DNA from: Daejeonella oryzae DSM 19973
GTDB lineage: Bacteria > Bacteroidota > Bacteroidia > Sphingobacteriales > Sphingobacteriaceae
Assembly (NCBI RefSeq): GCF_000422945.1
Contig: NZ_KE383964.1
Location: 124,001-188,000, forward strand
Direction: 5' to 3'
Length of the DNA: 64,000 nt
The position numbers and the translations under genes were made by a program. The notes beneath the pieces are model-generated. The model did no database searches, had not been told where the DNA came from, and saw only the letters and a program-made list of their open reading frames with translations. Below are positions 29,222 to 64,000 of this stretch, in pieces (within the stretch, counting starts at the first letter, position 1; each line of letters begins with the position of its first letter).

Positions 29222-29407
29222 GAAATCAGCTATTTACTTGAAGTTTTTCGAAAATATCAATGCCTGTTGGTGTATAAACAACACTTTATTTTTGAATATA
29301 ACTAATTCACCTTCAGGTAAGTTTTCAAAATAGCTTAATCTTCCTTTAACCAATAGAATCTGTAATCTTAAATATTCTTATAATCTCTAACCAAATCCTT
29401 AAAATCT

Positions 29408-37018: not shown

Positions 37019-39463
37019 CTATTCTTTCTCCATTTTCCAGGTTGAAATAATTCTGTTTGAATTTTCATTTTTTGATTTTAAGTAGAGCAGTTCATTTAAT
37101 TTGCCATTTCCCCAGGTGCTGATCATATCATCATAATAAAAACTTCCCGGATTTCCTGATTCGCCTCCCGGATATACTCCGTAAGCTTTTACGTTTTTAC
37201 CCAGTGCAACAATCATTCTCCAGGATGGTCCGTTGGTTTCATTCATGGCATTTACAGAAGTTTTAGAACCGCCGTTGTTTATGAAAGCTGAATTAAAACC
37301 TGCAATTTTTGCCAGATGAGGTACATAACTATGTTTTACATTTCCCCACTGCCAGTCTTTATCCATCGGCCCAAATTTTCTCTCCAGGCTGTCAACCGCA
37401 AATTTAAATGAAGCTAAAATCACATCTTCACGAGTTTCTTTAGAGGGTGTATTGATATTGTCAAACCATTTGGAATTGGGTTCATTTAATAATATTTCTA
37501 CCGTACGGTCGCGGGATGGATAACGCATCGGTACATTTTCTACAGTAAAATCATCACTCCATATCTGATTGATCAGTTCTTTCTGCCAGATTTCGAAAAT
37601 ACTTGCTCCTATTTGATCTGCATCGAAAAATTTATTCCATTTACTAACGATGTCGAAGCTTTGCTGCTGGCTTGCATTTAACTTTTGGGTATTAACCGAG
37701 CTCGACAATAGAGGTAAAATATTCTCTGCCAGAATGCTGTAGTTATCATTTTGTAAACTTCTTAAACTATCTACTGTAGCGTTTGTCATAACCGTGAGCC
37801 TGCTGTTAATACGTTTAGAGCGCTCATATCCGCTGAATTCCCAATTGATGTAATACGGATAAGATGGATCTGTAGAAAACTGGTTGGCGGAACTAACAAA
37901 ATTTCTCGGCGGATTTTTTACAGTAGGATTTTGCTCGGCAGGAATGCGACCGTTCCAGTCATTTACCGGATCGCTTCCATCCATCAAAAATTTGCCGTGA
38001 TTTTTCCATTTTAAAGGGAAGTAACCATTTGCGGTAATGCCAATATCACCTTCCATACTTGCAAAAACAAAGTTTTGTGCAGGTGCGGTATAATACTTTA
38101 ACGCCTGGCGGTAGTCGTCGTAATTTTTAGCCCTGTTAAGCATGTAAAATGTTCGCGTGTCATTTGAAGCATCATGAGCAATCCATCTTAAAGCATGTCC
38201 TGCCGGGATGTTTGAAGCCTTTCCAAATTTTTCAGGTTTCTGGTTATCCAGGTAAACTACCGGCCCGTGATGTGTGTAATATACCGTATCAATAATATTT
38301 TTTGAACCACTTACCGCGATATTTTCAATTCTGATTTTTACCGGATTCCACTTGTTATTATACCAGTATTCTTTTTTAGAATCGTCCTTAAACTTAATTT
38401 GATACCAATCCAGAACATCAGCTCCTACATTCGTTACTCCCCATGCTACCTGCTGATTAAATCCGATAATTACTCCGGGTGCTCCCGGAATAGAAACTCC
38501 GCAAACATTCATGTCATTTGAAATAAGCTGAATCTGATACCAGATAGCCGGTAAAGTTAAATCAAGATGCGGATCATTGGCCAGCATAGGAGAACCTGTA
38601 GAAGTTTTTGATCCGGCTAAGGCCCAGTTATTACTTCCGATACCTTCTTTAATCTGACGGGTTTTAATATTATATGAGATTTTAGGATTAACAGTTACAG
38701 CCGGTTGCTGTTGAACGGCTACAGGCTTAAAATTCCATTTTGTTCCCTGAGGGATTATGGGGCTTTCGCGAAATGGATAATCAGGAAATAAGTCATTAAC
38801 AACCTCCGGACCGAATTTATTAAGGATGTTGCTCATGTAAAATTCATTAGATCCGCCTGCAAGTGTTGCCGACATTAATTTTAAAAGCAATGCAGAATTA
38901 ACCGGATTCCAGTTCTCCGGCTTATAATTCAGAAGTTTAAATTCTATGGGATAATCTTCAGGATTTAATGAGGCGATATATGCATTTACACCTGCAGTAT
39001 AGGCATCCATCGTTTCCTGGATCTGCTTATCTTTCTTCATTTCCCTGACCATATTTTCTGCACCAAACATCATTCCCATACGTCTTTGATACCGGTCCAG
39101 TTCAATAGCTTTCGGACCCACTACTTCAGAAAGTCTCCCAGAGGCAAAACGGGTTTGAAAATCCATTTGCCACAAACGGTCTTTGGCGGTCATATATCCC
39201 TGCGCATAATACAGATCGTAATTATTATCAGCAAAAATATGCGGGATCATCTGATCATCGAACCTGATTTCTACATTTCCTTTTAAACCCGATAGAGTGA
39301 TGTCTTTTTGCTTGTCAACTTTTTTCTCTTCCGCGTTTTTCCAGAATCCATGGAAAGGATCAAGAAATTTTCCGAGAGGAGGGATGTCGCCCAGTTTAAT
39401 ATTTAAGGTAATAACTAAAGCCAGGGCAAACAGCAGAGAAAAAATTGCTTTAAAAAATTTCAT
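37019..39463 (-). CDS. Penicillin acylase family protein (Ntn hydrolase)
   Basis: An 814-residue precursor with an N-terminal membrane or signal segment (residues 4-24) and the features of periplasmic Ntn-hydrolase acylases: alpha-chain start IRFDDQMIPHIFADN, the spacer, and the autoprocessing site at G276-S277 in GIGSNNWAL, which frees the nucleophilic serine of the beta chain. AGSKTSTGSPMLANDPHL follows as usual. Natural substrates of this family include acyl-homoserine lactones and other N-acyl amines; penicillin use is not implied. It is divergent from a TonB-dependent receptor with 230 bp between them. Function cannot be narrowed from sequence. Confidence 0.88.
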   Translation of the reverse strand: MKFFKAIFSLLFALALVITLNIKLGDIPPLGKFLDPFHGFWKNAEEKKVDKQKDITLSGLKGNVEIRFDDQMIPHIFADNNYDLYYAQGYMTAKDRLWQMDFQTRFASGRLSEVVGPKAIELDRYQRRMGMMFGAENMVREMKKDKQIQETMDAYTAGVNAYIASLNPEDYPIEFKLLNYKPENWNPVNSALLLKLMSATLAGGSNEFYMSNILNKFGPEVVNDLFPDYPFRESPIIPQGTKWNFKPVAVQQQPAVTVNPKISYNIKTRQIKEGIGSNNWALAGSKTSTGSPMLANDPHLDLTLPAIWYQIQLISNDMNVCGVSIPGAPGVIIGFNQQVAWGVTNVGADVLDWYQIKFKDDSKKEYWYNNKWNPVKIRIENIAVSGSKNIIDTVYYTHHGPVVYLDNQKPEKFGKASNIPAGHALRWIAHDASNDTRTFYMLNRAKNYDDYRQALKYYTAPAQNFVFASMEGDIGITANGYFPLKWKNHGKFLMDGSDPVNDWNGRIPAEQNPTVKNPPRNFVSSANQFSTDPSYPYYINWEFSGYERSKRINSRLTVMTNATVDSLRSLQNDNYSILAENILPLLSSSVNTQKLNASQQQSFDIVSKWNKFFDADQIGASIFEIWQKELINQIWSDDFTVENVPMRYPSRDRTVEILLNEPNSKWFDNINTPSKETREDVILASFKFAVDSLERKFGPMDKDWQWGNVKHSYVPHLAKIAGFNSAFINNGGSKTSVNAMNETNGPSWRMIVALGKNVKAYGVYPGGESGNPGSFYYDDMISTWGNGKLNELLYLKSKNENSNRIISTWKMEKE

Positions 39464-39615
39464 CGGTGTAATTATATCAGGGTCTAAATATGTAAAAATT
39501 CATGGCCTTCCCCAAATGTTGTTTGTGAGAATTGAAGATATGGAACAGTTAATTTGCTCAAATGAAGTTTATTTTACTTCAAATTTTATTATGCATGCAT
39601 TAAATTAAAAATCAC

Positions 39616-42652: not shown

Positions 42653-42765
42653 AATTTCTTCTCCTGTTTATTTATAGTAATATTCTTTACCTCTTTAAAA
42701 ATTCAAATTATAATTTCGCATTCTTTAATATAAGGCTAACTTAGTGTTTATTTAACACCTTATTG

Positions 42766-56365: not shown

Positions 56366-57391
56366 ATGAAATATTTGTTAGTGCTATTATGCTCGATTTT
56401 AATGATTACATCCTGTAAACAGAAAACAGAAATGTCTTTGCAGGAATATTTTTTATCTGCTGATAGTGGAGTACAGAGTGGTGGGGTAAAAATGGTTGAA
56501 GTAAAAACGCCAAAAGGAAATTTTAAAGTATGGACAAAACGGATCGGCAATAATCCACGGATAAAGGTTTTGCTGTTGCATGGTGGTCCGGCCATGACGC
56601 ATGAATATATGGAATGTTTTGAAAGCTTCTTTCCCCAACAGGGTTTCGAACTGATAGAGTATGATCAGTTAGGATCTTATTACAGTGATCAGCCCCAGGA
56701 CAGTACTTTGTGGACTACAGAAAGATTTGTTGAAGAAGTGGAGCAGGTTCGCCAGGCCTTAAACATGAACAAAGAGAATTTTTATCTTTTAGGAAATTCG
56801 TGGGGCGGGATTCTGGCAATGGAGTATGCATTAAAATACCAGGAAAACTTAAAAGGCATGATCATTTGCAATATGATGGCAAGTATCCCAGATTATGAAA
56901 AATATAATGGTGTTTTGCGAAAGCAGATGAGGGCTTCCCTGGTCGATTCCCTTCAGTCATATGAAGACCGTAACATGTATAAAGATTCCACCTACCAGTC
57001 GCTTATTTTCAGTGAATATTACAGTAAGCATATTTGTCGTTTGCCTGTTTGGCCCGATCCGGTAATGCGGAGTTTTAAACATTTAAATGAAGAAATATAC
57101 GTCATGATGCAGGGGCCAAGTGAATTTAAAACCGGAGGCCGGTTAATTAAGTGGGATCGAAAATCTGATTTGAATAAGATTAAAATTCCCACCTTAACGG
57201 TAGGAGCAAAATATGATTCTATGGATCCGGAACATATGAAATGGATGAGTACTCAAGTTGAAAACGGTCGTTATTTATATTGTCCCAACGGTAGCCATTT
57301 AGCCATGTGGGATGATCAGCAAACGTTTATGAATGGTGTAATTAAATTTATTAAAGATGTTGATGATGGGAGTTTTAAAAAGGAAAATTAG
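56366..57391 (+). CDS. Alpha/beta-hydrolase lipoprotein of the proline iminopeptidase (S33) family
   Basis: A 341-residue lipoprotein (lipobox ITSC, C17) with an alpha/beta-hydrolase fold of the prolyl iminopeptidase type. HGGPAM for the oxyanion hole begins at residue 72, the nucleophile elbow is GNSWGG with S145, an Asp follows in GAKYDSMDP, and the catalytic His lies in NGSHLAMW. Proline iminopeptidases release N-terminal proline; lipid-anchored members could handle peptides in the periplasm. It lies 74 bp after glgB and converges on gapA across a terminator. Confidence 0.82.
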   Translation: MKYLLVLLCSILMITSCKQKTEMSLQEYFLSADSGVQSGGVKMVEVKTPKGNFKVWTKRIGNNPRIKVLLLHGGPAMTHEYMECFESFFPQQGFELIEYDQLGSYYSDQPQDSTLWTTERFVEEVEQVRQALNMNKENFYLLGNSWGGILAMEYALKYQENLKGMIICNMMASIPDYEKYNGVLRKQMRASLVDSLQSYEDRNMYKDSTYQSLIFSEYYSKHICRLPVWPDPVMRSFKHLNEEIYVMMQGPSEFKTGGRLIKWDRKSDLNKIKIPTLTVGAKYDSMDPEHMKWMSTQVENGRYLYCPNGSHLAMWDDQQTFMNGVIKFIKDVDDGSFKKEN

Positions 57392-57502: not shown

Positions 57503-59351
<1,849 letters not shown>

Positions 59352-59352
59352 A

Positions 59353-60336
59353 TTAAATGGATAAAATAGTTGAAAGTTCCATTAAATCTTCCTCAAGTTT
59401 AAATTCGTGTAAATTTAGAGCCTCGTGTAAATCAGTTAACGCTATAGAATTGCCTCTAATTCCCACAATTTTTCTAGTATCTCCATTTATCAAAGCTTTA
59501 ACTGCGGCATATCCAAAACGACATGCCAATACCCGGTCAAAGCTGCTGGGACTTCCACCACGCTGCAGATGTCCTAGGATAGTAACCTTGGCATCATAAA
59601 AATCAAACTTTTCTTTTACCCGTTTGGCAACGTCATATGCACCGCCGTTTTTATCACCTTCGGCAACAATTACAATACTGGATGATTTTTTATTTTTTGC
59701 ACCGGTTTCCAGTTTTTTAATCAGTTCATCAATCGCAGTGTCTCGTTCTGGAAGTAAAATGGCCTCTGCCCCGCCTGCAATTCCAGATCTGAGTGCAATA
59801 CATCCTGAATCTCTACCCATTACCTCAATAAAAAACAAGCGATCGTGTGATGCTGCTGTATCTCTTATTTTATCAATCGCTTCAATAACAGTGTTATTAG
59901 CGGTATCAAAACCCAGAGTAAAATCAGTTCCGTATAAATCATTATCAATTGTGCCCGGAATACAGATTACAGGGATGTCATATTTTTCGGAAAAAATTTC
60001 TGCCCCGGTGGCTGTTCCATCACCGCCGATAGCAATGAGCGAATCAATACCATGAGAACGAAGATTTTTATACGCTTTTTCTCTGCCTTCGGGAGTTAAA
60101 AATTCCATGCACCGGGCAGTTTTAAGAATGGTTCCTCCAAGGTGGATTATGTTACTAACCGACCGGGCGTCCATATCCCAAAAATTTTTATTTATCATTC
60201 CCTGATATCCCTGGCGGATACCAACCACTTCTTTTCCTAAGTATATACCAGAGCGAACCACGGCTCTAATACAGGCGTTCATTCCAGGAGCGTCGCCACC
60301 CGAAGTAAATACACCGATTTTATTTATAGCTGCCAA
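59353..60336 (-). CDS. pfkA: 6-phosphofructokinase
   Basis: ATP-dependent phosphofructokinase, 327 residues. The ATP motif GGDGT is at 104-108, the catalytic loop PGTIDND at 127-133, and MGRDSG at 173-178. G104 in the GGDGT motif, with Gly rather than Asp, fits an ATP rather than pyrophosphate enzyme. It is the first gene of the pfkA-kinase-gapA operon. The 117-bp divergent region to the NUDIX regulator contains a perfect palindrome (60364-60378). Confidence 0.96.
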   Translation of the reverse strand: MAAINKIGVFTSGGDAPGMNACIRAVVRSGIYLGKEVVGIRQGYQGMINKNFWDMDARSVSNIIHLGGTILKTARCMEFLTPEGREKAYKNLRSHGIDSLIAIGGDGTATGAEIFSEKYDIPVICIPGTIDNDLYGTDFTLGFDTANNTVIEAIDKIRDTAASHDRLFFIEVMGRDSGCIALRSGIAGGAEAILLPERDTAIDELIKKLETGAKNKKSSSIVIVAEGDKNGGAYDVAKRVKEKFDFYDAKVTILGHLQRGGSPSSFDRVLACRFGYAAVKALINGDTRKIVGIRGNSIALTDLHEALNLHEFKLEEDLMELSTILSI

Positions 60337-60363
60337 TAATTTTTTTTTAAGTACGAATATAAG

Positions 60364-60378
60364 GTGTAATTATTACAC
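60364..60378. promoter_or_regulatory. Perfect palindrome, candidate operator between pfkA and the NUDIX regulator
   Basis: GTGTAATTATTACAC is a perfect 7-1-7 palindrome. It lies 28 bp upstream of the pfkA start and 76 bp upstream of the regulator start. The extended half-site GGTGTAATTA (60363-60372) recurs at 61391-61400 and 39465-39474. Binding by the adjacent regulator is inferred. Confidence 0.5.
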
Positions 60379-60453: not shown

Positions 60454-61149
60454 TTGGAAACTATATTACCTAAATTTGATTCTGTATTTTCTATTGACTG
60501 TGTAATTTTCGGCTTTGATGAAGGAGAGTTAAAAATACTATTAATTGAGCGTAATGTAGAACCTTTTATAGATTGGTGGGCATTGCCGGGTTATTTGGTC
60601 GAAGAAAATGAAAGTTTAGATCATGCTGCCGAACGGATATTATATGAATTAACTGGCTTACGGGATATTTATATGGATCAGTTTTATACTTTCGGTGATG
60701 TTGACAGACATCCTCAGGGTCGTGTAGTAACTGTTGCATATTATGCAATGTTAAGGCTTAATGGTCCGAAAGAATTAAAACCTGTTACTTCTTACGCACG
60801 CCGGGCAGTTTGGATTCCAATAAAAGACCTTCCTAAATTAGCTTTTGATCATGCAAAGATTTTTGAACGTGGATTTTTAAAGATCAGAAATAAAATCACC
60901 TACCAGCCAATCGCTTTTGAATTACTTCCAGAAAAATTTACTCTAACCCAGCTCCAGCATTTGTATGAAGTTATTTTGAATAAAAGTTTAGATAAAAGAA
61001 ACTTTCGAAAGAAAATGCTCAATTACGGCATTTTAAAAGAACTTGATGAGAAACAAAAAGGCGTGTCGTACAGGGCTGCTAAATTATACAAGTTTGATAA
61101 AAGAAAGTATGCACGGCTTTTTCAGAAGGAACTTACTTTTGGTAAATAA
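60454..61149 (+). CDS. NUDIX-domain transcriptional regulator (NrtR/AraR-like)
   Basis: The 231-residue product joins an N-terminal NUDIX domain (residues about 10-140) to a C-terminal winged-helix-like domain (ELLPEKFTLTQLQHLYEVIL and LDKRNFRKKML). The Nudix box G46-L69 is degenerate: the RE pair is R61-I62 and the EE pair is E65-L66, so catalysis is probably lost and the domain senses a nucleotide or sugar ligand. This layout is that of NrtR and of the Bacteroides arabinose regulator AraR. No ATG is in frame near the start; TTG at 60454 follows an in-frame stop at 60448 and is the likely start. It diverges from pfkA and is followed by a terminator and then a SusC gene. Confidence 0.85.
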   Translation: METILPKFDSVFSIDCVIFGFDEGELKILLIERNVEPFIDWWALPGYLVEENESLDHAAERILYELTGLRDIYMDQFYTFGDVDRHPQGRVVTVAYYAMLRLNGPKELKPVTSYARRAVWIPIKDLPKLAFDHAKIFERGFLKIRNKITYQPIAFELLPEKFTLTQLQHLYEVILNKSLDKRNFRKKMLNYGILKELDEKQKGVSYRAAKLYKFDKRKYARLFQKELTFGK

Positions 61150-61208: not shown

Positions 61209-61491
61209 ATATTATAACTAATTCTGCCATTATTATCAATTAATAGTTTTTGACATCTAAAGTCATTGGTTAAAATTATTTTTTCTTGATTTTTTGACAA
61301 AAGTTATGTGATTAATAAATTAGTTTTTATGTAACTTGAATTTATTAATTTTCTAACTCAGTTAAGTATAATCAAATCGAGATATACAGTGGTGTAATTA
61401 AATGGCTGATAAATAAAAATACTTGCGTTAAACTATTTAATAACGGTGAAAAAAAAGGCTTAAGACAGCGATAAAAAATTATTGTTTATTC

Positions 61492-61522
61492 TTTGTGTAA
61501 TAAGTACAATTACTTAACTTTA
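61492..61522 (+). promoter_or_regulatory. Candidate promoter of the SusC-like gene
   Basis: TTTG (61492-61495), a 19-base spacer, then TAACTTTA (61515-61522), one mismatch to TAnnTTTG. Same spacing and same mismatch as the other TonB receptor promoter at 39616-39646. The leader would be about 55 bases. Confidence 0.55.
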
Positions 61523-61584: not shown

Positions 61585-64000
61585 ATGAACTTAAAATTTT
61601 TACTATCGAGGTCTCTCTTTGGTATAGTTCTAATTCTGCTGGTAAATTCTGTATTTGCACAGAATGTTACTATCTCCGGATTAGTAACTGACAGCAAGGA
61701 TAAGGAACCCTTAATTGGAGTATCTGTTAAAGTTAAAGGAACTCCCAGCGGCACCAGTACAGGTGCTGATGGAACTTTCCGGCTTTCTGTGCCCGATAAT
61801 TCTGCTACACTGGTTTTTTCCTATTTGGGATATAATAATCTGGAAGTGGCAATTAGCGGTAGAACAACTATTAATGTATCGCTTGACCCCAGCAGCACTT
61901 CGTTAAGCGAGGTGGTTGTAATAGGTTACGGCACTCAAAAAGTAAAAGATGCAACAGGATCCGTATCCTCAATTGGAACAAAAGAATTCAATAAAGGAGT
62001 TATTGCTTCACCTGAGCAATTGTTACAAGGTAGAGTGGCGGGTGTTCAGGTAACGCCGGCAAGTGGTGAACCCGGATCCGGAGCGACTATTAATATACGT
62101 GGAACCAGCTCTATTCGTGCGGGAAATGGTCCATTGTATGTTGTGGATGGGGTTCCTTTAGATGGTGGTGGTACATCCGGCGGACTAGATGCTGGTGCGG
62201 GTACTTCTTCAGCAAGAAATCCTTTGTCATTTATTAATCCTAGTGATATTGAGAATATCAGTATTTTGAAAGATGCGTCAGCATCTGCTATTTACGGATC
62301 AAGGGGAGCTAACGGGGTAGTGTTAATTACTACCCGAAAAGGCTCGTCTTCTCAGGGAATTCAATTTGGGGCAAATACCAGTATTTCAACAGTAGCCAAA
62401 AGATACGACTTATTAAATGCGGGTCAGTTCTTACCTGCAGTAGCTGCTACTGGCGCAGATGCAACTGCTGTTAATTTTGGTGGTGAAACAAACTGGCAGG
62501 ATGAAATTTTCAGAACAGGAGTTTCCCAGAATTATAATTTAGGATTCGGAGGTGCAAAAGGTGCCTCATCATATCGTGCCTCTTTTAGCTATGATAATCA
62601 AAACGGAACAATTAAAAATTCCGGGTTACAGCGTTTGACAGGACGTTTAAATGCCTCTCAGATGTTATTAAGCGATAAAATTAAGTTAGATCTCCAGTTT
62701 ACTGCATCTAATATCAAAAATGATTTTGCTCCTATATCAGACAATGCAGGTTTTGAAGGTAGTTTAATTGGTGCAGTTCTTCAGGCTAATCCAACAGTAC
62801 CTGTCAGAAATCCGAACGGAACCTTCTTCGATACAAAAGCCGGAGGTTTCAGAAATCCGGTTGCTATGCTTGAATTGATTGACGATACGGATAATATAAA
62901 CAGATACCTTGGTAATTTTAGTGCCTCTTATACTTTTGTGAAAAATCTTACTTATAAAGGTACAATTGGTATTGATGAATCAAAAGCCGTAAGAACAACC
63001 TACCTTGATCCAAACCTCACCGGATATACTGGTGGTCAGAATATTAGAGGAATAAATATTAATCAGGTTACAGGTAACGGACGCGGAATTGTTCAAAATT
63101 TGCAACTTTCCTCTTACATTACAGAGCACACACTAAACTATGATAAGCAATTAAGTAATAGCAGTTCTTTAAATATTTTAGGAGGATTTTCTTATCAGCA
63201 ATTCAAAACTAATCCATTAAATGAAGTAGCGTATACGACTTCAACTCCCAATGTATTAGTTAAGGATATGAATTCTTTTACGAACAGATTGCCACTTTTC
63301 GGAGATAGCACCAAATCAGAGTTGCAATCTTTCTTCGGACGTGCTAACTACAATCTGAACGATAAGTATTTATTTACAGCAACTGTACGTACGGATGGTT
63401 CCTCTAAATTTGGAGAAAATAATAAATACGCCACTTTTCCAGCATTCGCTGTTAAATGGAAAATTATGAATGAAAGTTTTGCACCAAAAGAATCTTTTGA
63501 TGATCTGAGCCTTCGATTAAATTTTGGTATAACCGGTAACCAGGAATTTCCTGCATATGCTTCATTAGCTATTAAACAAGCTAATTTTAACGGTAGTTCT
63601 AATACTATAACCGCTGCCAGTCCTGATTTGAAATGGGAAACTACTACTCAGTATGGTGCGGGTATAGATTTCGCCATTTTGAAAAACAAATTGTCTGGAA
63701 CTCTGGATTATTTTAATAAATCAACAGAAGATCTATTATTCCTACAGGATTATGCACAGCCTGCAGCAATCCCCAGAAGATGGGTAAACTTACCTGGTAA
63801 AGTAATTAACTCAGGTCTGGAACTTGGTTTGAATCTTGATGCTGTAAGAAATTCCGGTTTCTCATGGGAAGTAATGTATAACATGACGATTCTTAAAAAC
63901 GAAGTAAAAGACTTTGGTAATAGAAACGTGATCACGGGTAATATCGACGGACAGGGATTATCTGGTGCATATGCGCAGATAATCACAAACGGTCAGCCTC
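61585..64000 (+). CDS. SusC/RagA-family TonB-linked outer-membrane protein (3' end outside window)
   Basis: The first 805 residues of a SusC-type receptor that imports glycans or other large nutrients with a SusD partner. A signal peptide ends near VFAQ (residues 1-26). A carboxypeptidase-D-like domain follows (TISGLVTDSKDKEPLIGVS), then the SusC signature SLSEVVVIGYGTQ, a plug (LLQGRVAGVQV, NIRGTSSIRAG, LYVVDGVP, ILKDASASAIYGSRGANG) and beta-barrel strands. The frame is open to the last base. A susD gene would be expected just beyond the window. The locus lies beside the NUDIX regulator, so the substrate may be the regulator's ligand source. Confidence 0.95.
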   Translation, partial: MNLKFLLSRSLFGIVLILLVNSVFAQNVTISGLVTDSKDKEPLIGVSVKVKGTPSGTSTGADGTFRLSVPDNSATLVFSYLGYNNLEVAISGRTTINVSLDPSSTSLSEVVVIGYGTQKVKDATGSVSSIGTKEFNKGVIASPEQLLQGRVAGVQVTPASGEPGSGATINIRGTSSIRAGNGPLYVVDGVPLDGGGTSGGLDAGAGTSSARNPLSFINPSDIENISILKDASASAIYGSRGANGVVLITTRKGSSSQGIQFGANTSISTVAKRYDLLNAGQFLPAVAATGADATAVNFGGETNWQDEIFRTGVSQNYNLGFGGAKGASSYRASFSYDNQNGTIKNSGLQRLTGRLNASQMLLSDKIKLDLQFTASNIKNDFAPISDNAGFEGSLIGAVLQANPTVPVRNPNGTFFDTKAGGFRNPVAMLELIDDTDNINRYLGNFSASYTFVKNLTYKGTIGIDESKAVRTTYLDPNLTGYTGGQNIRGININQVTGNGRGIVQNLQLSSYITEHTLNYDKQLSNSSSLNILGGFSYQQFKTNPLNEVAYTTSTPNVLVKDMNSFTNRLPLFGDSTKSELQSFFGRANYNLNDKYLFTATVRTDGSSKFGENNKYATFPAFAVKWKIMNESFAPKESFDDLSLRLNFGITGNQEFPAYASLAIKQANFNGSSNTITAASPDLKWETTTQYGAGIDFAILKNKLSGTLDYFNKSTEDLLFLQDYAQPAAIPRRWVNLPGKVINSGLELGLNLDAVRNSGFSWEVMYNMTILKNEVKDFGNRNVITGNIDGQGLSGAYAQIITNGQP

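Follow-up and report, generated by a model that had tools for sequence, protein, structure and literature searches.

A perfect 15-bp palindrome, GTGTAATTATTACAC, centred on a T and of the form GTGT-N7-ACAC, is predicted to be the operator of an adjacent NrtR-family regulator that probably controls a glycolysis regulon in the Sphingobacteriaceae. It is located in the window, which is the whole stretch of 64,000 nucleotides analysed from Daejeonella oryzae DSM 19973, in a gap of 117 nt between pfkA (minus strand) and a NUDIX-type gene (plus strand). What was observed, and what this prediction builds on, is the set of sites and how well they are conserved, where they lie with respect to -7-like boxes, the family to which the protein belongs and a recognition helix identical to that of the crystallised regulator BtAraR. 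A preliminary description of this DNA had reported a perfect palindrome between pfkA and the NUDIX regulator; the palindrome is real, but it starts at 60364, and base 60363 lies outside its symmetry. Its proposal that the NUDIX regulator may control glycolysis through the palindrome is strongly supported by comparative genomics and extends to pyk, eno, gdh and pdhA. The string GTGTAATNATTACAC is present as a single exact copy in the whole 3.45-Mb genome.

Table 1. Features of the 64,000-nt window that bear on the predicted operator
Feature	Position	Strand	Remarks
Presumed pfkA -7 box TATATTCG	60354..60361	-	2 nt after operator; consensus match
Predicted operator GTGTAATTATTACAC	60364..60378		Starts 42 nt before the minus-strand pfkA start; from sequence and conservation
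pfkA, 6-phosphofructokinase	59353..60336	-	TIGR02482 409 bits, cut-off 371; main predicted target
Kinase-like gene, pfkA operon	58503..59351	-	Weakly like N-acetylglucosamine kinase
gapA, glyceraldehyde-3-phosphate dehydrogenase	57503..58501	-	TIGR01534 460 bits, cut-off 367
NrtR-family regulator	60454..61149	+	Nudix-like domain and winged helix
Weak candidate site GTGTAATAAGTACAA, 7/8	61495..61509	+	90 nt before SusC; overlaps possible -33 element
SusC-like TonB receptor, 3' of regulator	61585..64000, past window end	+	ORF of 993 aa (L044); doubtful target
Exact site GTGTATAAACAACAC	29270..29284	+	Precedes nucleoside/sugar-type MFS symporter (29408+); TATTTTTG box 2 nt downstream
Exact site GTGTTTATTTAACAC	42744..42758	+	Immediately before cyclomaltodextrinase gene (42763+)

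Domain searches with the regulator gave 48 bits for PF00293, 101.6 bits for PF21906 and 58.9 bits for PF19368, all above the respective cut-offs, which is the domain composition of the NrtR family. Active Nudix enzymes are described as having the motif REUXEEXGU (PMC4666351), and at this position the regulator has RILYELTGL, an impaired signature in which two glutamates are replaced. The best match among solved structures was BtAraR (BT0354 of Bacteroides thetaiotaomicron; E 3e-56, 44% identity), which shares with the window protein the combination of a Nudix-like domain with a winged helix. The DNA in the BtAraR crystal is given as GTGT-N7-ACAC, which is the spacing of the window palindrome (Table 2, PMC4666351), and the recognition helix DKRNFRK is the same in BtAraR, in the window protein and in 34/34 aligned orthologues. 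When the DNA-contact residues of BtAraR (Lys179, Arg180, Asn181, Lys184, Lys204 and Arg205) were compared, five of the six were identical in the window protein, the wing residue Lys204 being a Tyr. Arg34, Arg86 and His131 of the sugar pocket are kept, whereas positions 36, 48 and 49 differ from BtAraR. The two proteins also differ in their targets, which are araMPRDAB for BtAraR and, by prediction, glycolysis genes in the present case, and in their place in a 77-protein tree, where the pfkA-linked proteins stood as a clade by themselves (98/89) and BtAraR was joined (100/100) by all but one of the 15 labelled paralogues. A paralogue in genome G020 (L297) adjoins araB, araD and araA, whereas the neighbours of the window regulator are pfkA, the kinase-like gene, gapA and SusCD, and thus do not form an arabinose gene context. 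By its separate position in the tree, the window protein is assigned to a clade distinct from AraR. It was the only family member found in its own genome, so no AraR-type paralogue competes for sites there. Another NrtR-family sugar-pathway regulator is BtXylR (BT0791), with xylose use as its published target (PMC3878776, PMC4666351). SoNrtR, the Shewanella NrtR of NAD metabolism (3gz5/3gz6), has the same two-domain plan, but is 31% identical to BtAraR and has a different helix. Regulators of this NAD branch control NAD genes, with ADP-ribose as ligand; no NAD genes were among the 13 own-genome site neighbours scanned, and none were recognised by eye among the remainder. Distant relatives, 37-45% identical to the regulator, are also encoded on six contigs classed as viral (L492-L497).

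A homologue of the regulator was found in each of the 36 relatives searched within the family, in 34 cases with at least 54% identity. Upstream of the regulator's own gene, within 350 nt of its start, an exact GTGT-N7-ACAC with a variable middle was found at 28 of 30 loci (own locus included); the two loci that lack it (G005 and G024) are without a divergent pfkA, and G014 also has neither the site nor a divergent pfkA. Among fetched loci with a linked pfkA, 17 of 18 have the exact site, the exception being G023 with 7/8 of the GTGT/ACAC letters, and the linked pfkA of G026 reaches 6/8 letters; the lack of an exact site in these two genomes counts against the main reading. The 43 named records that matched best (64-90% identity) come from Pedobacter, Mucilaginibacter, Parapedobacter, Olivibacter, Arcticibacter and MAGs, and the set overlaps the G-numbered genomes, in part consisting of the same genomes. 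A divergent pfkA is present in 39 of the 43, and in all 39 an exact site begins 37-66 nt before pfkA. The distance from site to regulator ranges in these records from 60 to 403 nt, and such a narrow range of distances to pfkA, with a wide one to the regulator, indicates that the site is primarily that of pfkA. Of 266 upstream regions in the surroundings of the regulator, 33 carry a site, and 31 of these are the regions of pfkA or of the regulator itself. The kinase-like gene (NF046058 23.5 bits, cut-off 370; no match in Pfam) keeps its place between pfkA and gapA at 17 of the 18 loci with a linked pfkA. A second kinase-like gene of the own genome (L045:15367-16221), also without a Pfam match, has homologues directly after the regulator in many relatives, with an exact site upstream in G032 (L114). 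A second pfkA copy (about 60% identity) was discarded as a target, there being no exact site in the family copies examined and 7/8 letters in three (G014, G026 and G029).

Twelve class-level genomes without the regulator showed no pfkA site, their 13 pfkA copies reaching at most 6/8 letters, a comparison in which the regulator-free genomes all lie outside the family, as every family genome searched has a homologue. Outside the family, six genomes hold both a more distant homologue and pfkA, and an exact pfkA site is present only in G038, where both genes are neighbours; its absence in the other five counts against the main reading. More distant homologues from other orders and phyla, with no pfkA alongside, have an exact upstream site in 16 of 36 cases (0.11 expected), which links the operator with the regulator's protein family more than with pfkA. 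GTGT-N7-ACAC also precedes distant homologues from Verrucomicrobiota, Planctomycetota and Cyanobacteriota (e.g., L466 and L474), and L466 lies near a nadR-like gene.

In the own genome, the loose pattern GTGT-N7-ACAC occurred at 18 places, compared to 14 for a reversed control, and is thus barely enriched, so that a good part of these sites may be due to chance. Six of them are exact sites before pfkA/regulator, pyk, eno, pdhA, pdhB and gdh, two are exact sites in a starch-type locus and two are those at 29270 and 42744 in the window, whereas the other eight fall within ORFs, at ORF ends or next to genes whose relevance is unclear. When the strict pattern GTGTAWNNNWTACAC was used instead, matches in 20 genomes of the genus numbered 49, compared to 5 with the reversed control, and those in 16 other family genomes 56 compared to 4, in contrast to 22 versus 23 in 23 genomes outside the family. 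The strict-pattern loci off the regulator locus (34, together with L045 and L046) include sites at pyk (3), eno (4), gdh (2) and PDH E1-beta (1), and four relatives' sites inside ORFs. Among the matches listed in a second neighbour set (45 loci, leaving out at least one G035 site) were pyk (6), eno (2), gapA (1) and gdh (1), with six sites inside ORFs. Many sites of the relatives face no glycolysis gene, which does not fit the main reading; their other neighbours, named by eye, include putative genes for galactokinase, AdhE, GOGAT, transaldolase, ThuA and GH3.

As the genes beside the strict sites pointed to glycolysis, upstream regions were tested gene by gene within 250 nt. An exact site was found before pyruvate kinase (pyk) in 26 of 30 genomes (shuffle expectation 0.00) and before enolase (eno) at 20 of 30 loci, one of them a paralogue (0.02), in both cases at steady distances. 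For glutamate dehydrogenase (gdh) exact sites were found in 7 of 29 cases, and sites with at least 7/8 letters in 14 of 29 (1.53 expected). The gene for PDH E1-alpha (pdhA) has an exact site in 6 and a site with at least 7/8 letters in 10 of 30 genomes (0.13 and 1.93 expected). The corresponding numbers for PDH E1-beta (pdhB) are 2 and 3 of 30 (0.07 and 1.80 expected), and pdhB was therefore dropped as a conserved target, its exact site being confined to the own genome and G013. Upstream of eno in L232, L233 and L237, the operator forms the core of a longer inverted repeat, GTCTTA-GTGT...ACAC-TAAGAC.

The starch-type locus of the own genome lies outside the window (G000:C3:215-226 kb) and comprises SusC, SusD, SusE, a GH13 enzyme and a LacI-type gene. 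Its two exact sites are at C3:215427 (L045:12427) and C3:225326 (L046:3326), and its TonB receptor is preceded by an exact site at a distance of 246 nt. Exact sites are likewise present at the homologues of the SusC/LacI pair in G015 and G032 and of the GH13 gene in G029. The exact window sites at 29270 and 42744 had been overlooked in the preliminary description; in the relative genome G018, a gene 80% identical to that of the symporter after 29270 is likewise preceded by an exact site, at 97 nt.

Bacteroidota promoters have a -33 element. The flavobacterial -7 element has the shape TAnnTT[TC]G (PMC9723704), and the promoter assignments given here are consensus matches with presumed start sites. 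A -7-like box was located exactly 2 nt past the operator at 20/20 of the relatives' exact pfkA sites and at 35 of 39 named ones, so the operator would fill the core promoter of pfkA, where a repressor would sit. At 13 of 21 eno sites, the -7-like box ends 12-17 nt ahead of the operator, and for pyk no box position dominates. For pdhA, the box starts 30-31 nt after the operator in 6/6 cases, a geometry which by position would be more usual for activation and counts against the main reading. Likewise, the gdh site (L375-L403) lies well before the coding sequence and upstream of TTTG-like boxes, which is more usual for activation than for repression.

According to the mechanism that we propose, a dimer of the regulator would read GTGT-N7-ACAC with its two winged helices. 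The conserved core of targets would consist of pfkA-kinase-gapA, pyk and eno, and part of the family would add gdh, pdhA and alpha-glucan uptake genes. As the pfkA site lies between -33 and -7 and the eno site just past the presumed start, the free protein most likely represses at these positions, and pfkA and eno are thus probably repressed. Cra/FruR, CggR and HexR are examples of one glycolysis regulator acting over several central carbon operons; the similarity is one of working only, as they belong to unrelated protein families, and no homology is claimed. The regulator would be released when a sugar, or a ligand derived from one, occupies the Nudix-like pocket, in the way that L-arabinose releases BtAraR from DNA (PMC4666351). 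More tentatively, the protein might be a global carbon regulator of the Sphingobacteriaceae that stems from the NrtR/AraR family of sugar sensors. Its signal would be an intermediate of glycolysis or a sugar of the glucose type, and it would set the whole route that begins with starch uptake, runs via pfkA, gapA, eno and pyk and ends at pyruvate dehydrogenase. Some promoters would be repressed and others, with the site upstream, activated, which would make it a Bacteroidota counterpart of Cra built on an unrelated protein; we regard this wider role as possible but doubtful.

It is unlikely that the GTGT-N7-ACAC sites serve another transcription factor, such as the LacI-type protein of the starch locus, and that the NUDIX gene is a mere neighbour. 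Such a factor would account for a site position that tracks pfkA (37-66 nt) and not the regulator gene (60-403 nt), and a LacI-type gene does adjoin one exact site, but the spacing and the DNA-reading helix agree with those of BtAraR, enrichment of the motif is seen within the regulator-bearing family and not in the 23 genomes outside it, and the upstream motif is found for 16 of the 36 distant homologues, which have no pfkA nearby. That the regulator controls only pfkA and itself, with the other sites being coincidental or belonging to other family members, seems very unlikely: the 18 loose matches against 14 in the control, the poor conservation at pdhB and the AraR-type paralogues with a similar helix in some relatives agree with it, whereas the frequencies at pyk (26/30) and eno (20/30), at steady distances and with 0.00 and 0.02 in shuffled sequences, and the exact pyk and eno sites in the own genome, which has a single family member, do not.

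An orthologue of AraR whose sites serve arabinose control, as might be suspected from the 44% identity to BtAraR, the same helix and the retained Arg34, Arg86 and His131, is highly improbable given a tree that sets BtAraR with 14/15 paralogues (100/100) and the pfkA-linked proteins apart (98/89), one paralogue confirmed beside araB, araD and araA, the differences at pocket positions 36, 48 and 49, and the lack of arabinose genes among the own-genome site neighbours scanned. There is only a minimal probability that the palindrome is a product of chance or an RNA hairpin and no protein site at all. The intergenic DNA is AT-rich, and the eno site lies in a presumed leader with a longer inverted repeat in some genomes, but the site is conserved around a variable middle. 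A chance origin was rejected on the basis of pyk and eno in comparison to shuffles and of the 16/36 distant homologues versus 0.11 expected, and a hairpin is rejected for pfkA and pdhA, as sites before the -7-like box would not be transcribed from it.

A search of a collection of open-access articles, with subscription papers and regulon databases outside its scope, found AraR and XylR, but for the Bacteroidota no transcriptional regulator dedicated to core glycolysis genes. Such a glycolysis circuit has no earlier description that we found in this literature. If correct, the prediction names a regulator, an operator and targets for a large set of bacteria that degrade polysaccharides, among them Pedobacter, Mucilaginibacter, Parapedobacter and Olivibacter, and would take the NrtR family beyond NAD and pentoses to central carbon metabolism.

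The preliminary description had also noted four copies of a 10-base half, with less than one expected by chance. The window indeed holds exactly four copies of the 10-mer GGTGTAATTA (39465, 57335, 60363 and 61391), always on the plus strand, compared to 0.19 copies expected, a comparison made after the string had been chosen. As stated there, the copy at 57335 lies inside a coding region (ORF 56366-57391); that at 39465 adjoins a gene ending at 39463, a putative penicillin acylase, and that at 61391 is without a partner half. Counted as near-palindromes with at most three mismatches, three matches were obtained versus 2.19 expected, a number reached in 37 of 100 shuffles, and such a chance-level count does not confirm the GGTGTAATTA copies as operators. 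The half-sites at 61391, 39465 and 57335 were rejected as operators, each having fewer than 7/8 of the GTGT/ACAC letters, and the proposed link from the regulator to two TonB receptors through 61391 and 39465 is not supported.

A SusC gene beside the regulator was dismissed as a conserved arrangement for most of the family: among the 20 loci L099-L118, SusC is nearby only in G034, in the other orientation; in G006 it is directly downstream. Control of the window SusC was likewise not borne out at 61391, and what is left of it is the weak site at 61495, where GTGTAAT is present as described and which is among the ten window positions with at least 7/8 of the GTGT/ACAC letters. A similar site was found in 2 of 6 SusC homologues and not in the other four (0.73 of 7 expected), in a search that scored up to 32 candidates per genome and kept those with E <= 1e-200, so that homologues may be missed. 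The overlap with the possible -33 element could explain part of this likeness. The 7/8 sites before the two homologues are placed at -90 (G013) and -94 (G006) in otherwise diverged DNA, and 61495 as a SusC site is suggestive by sequence.
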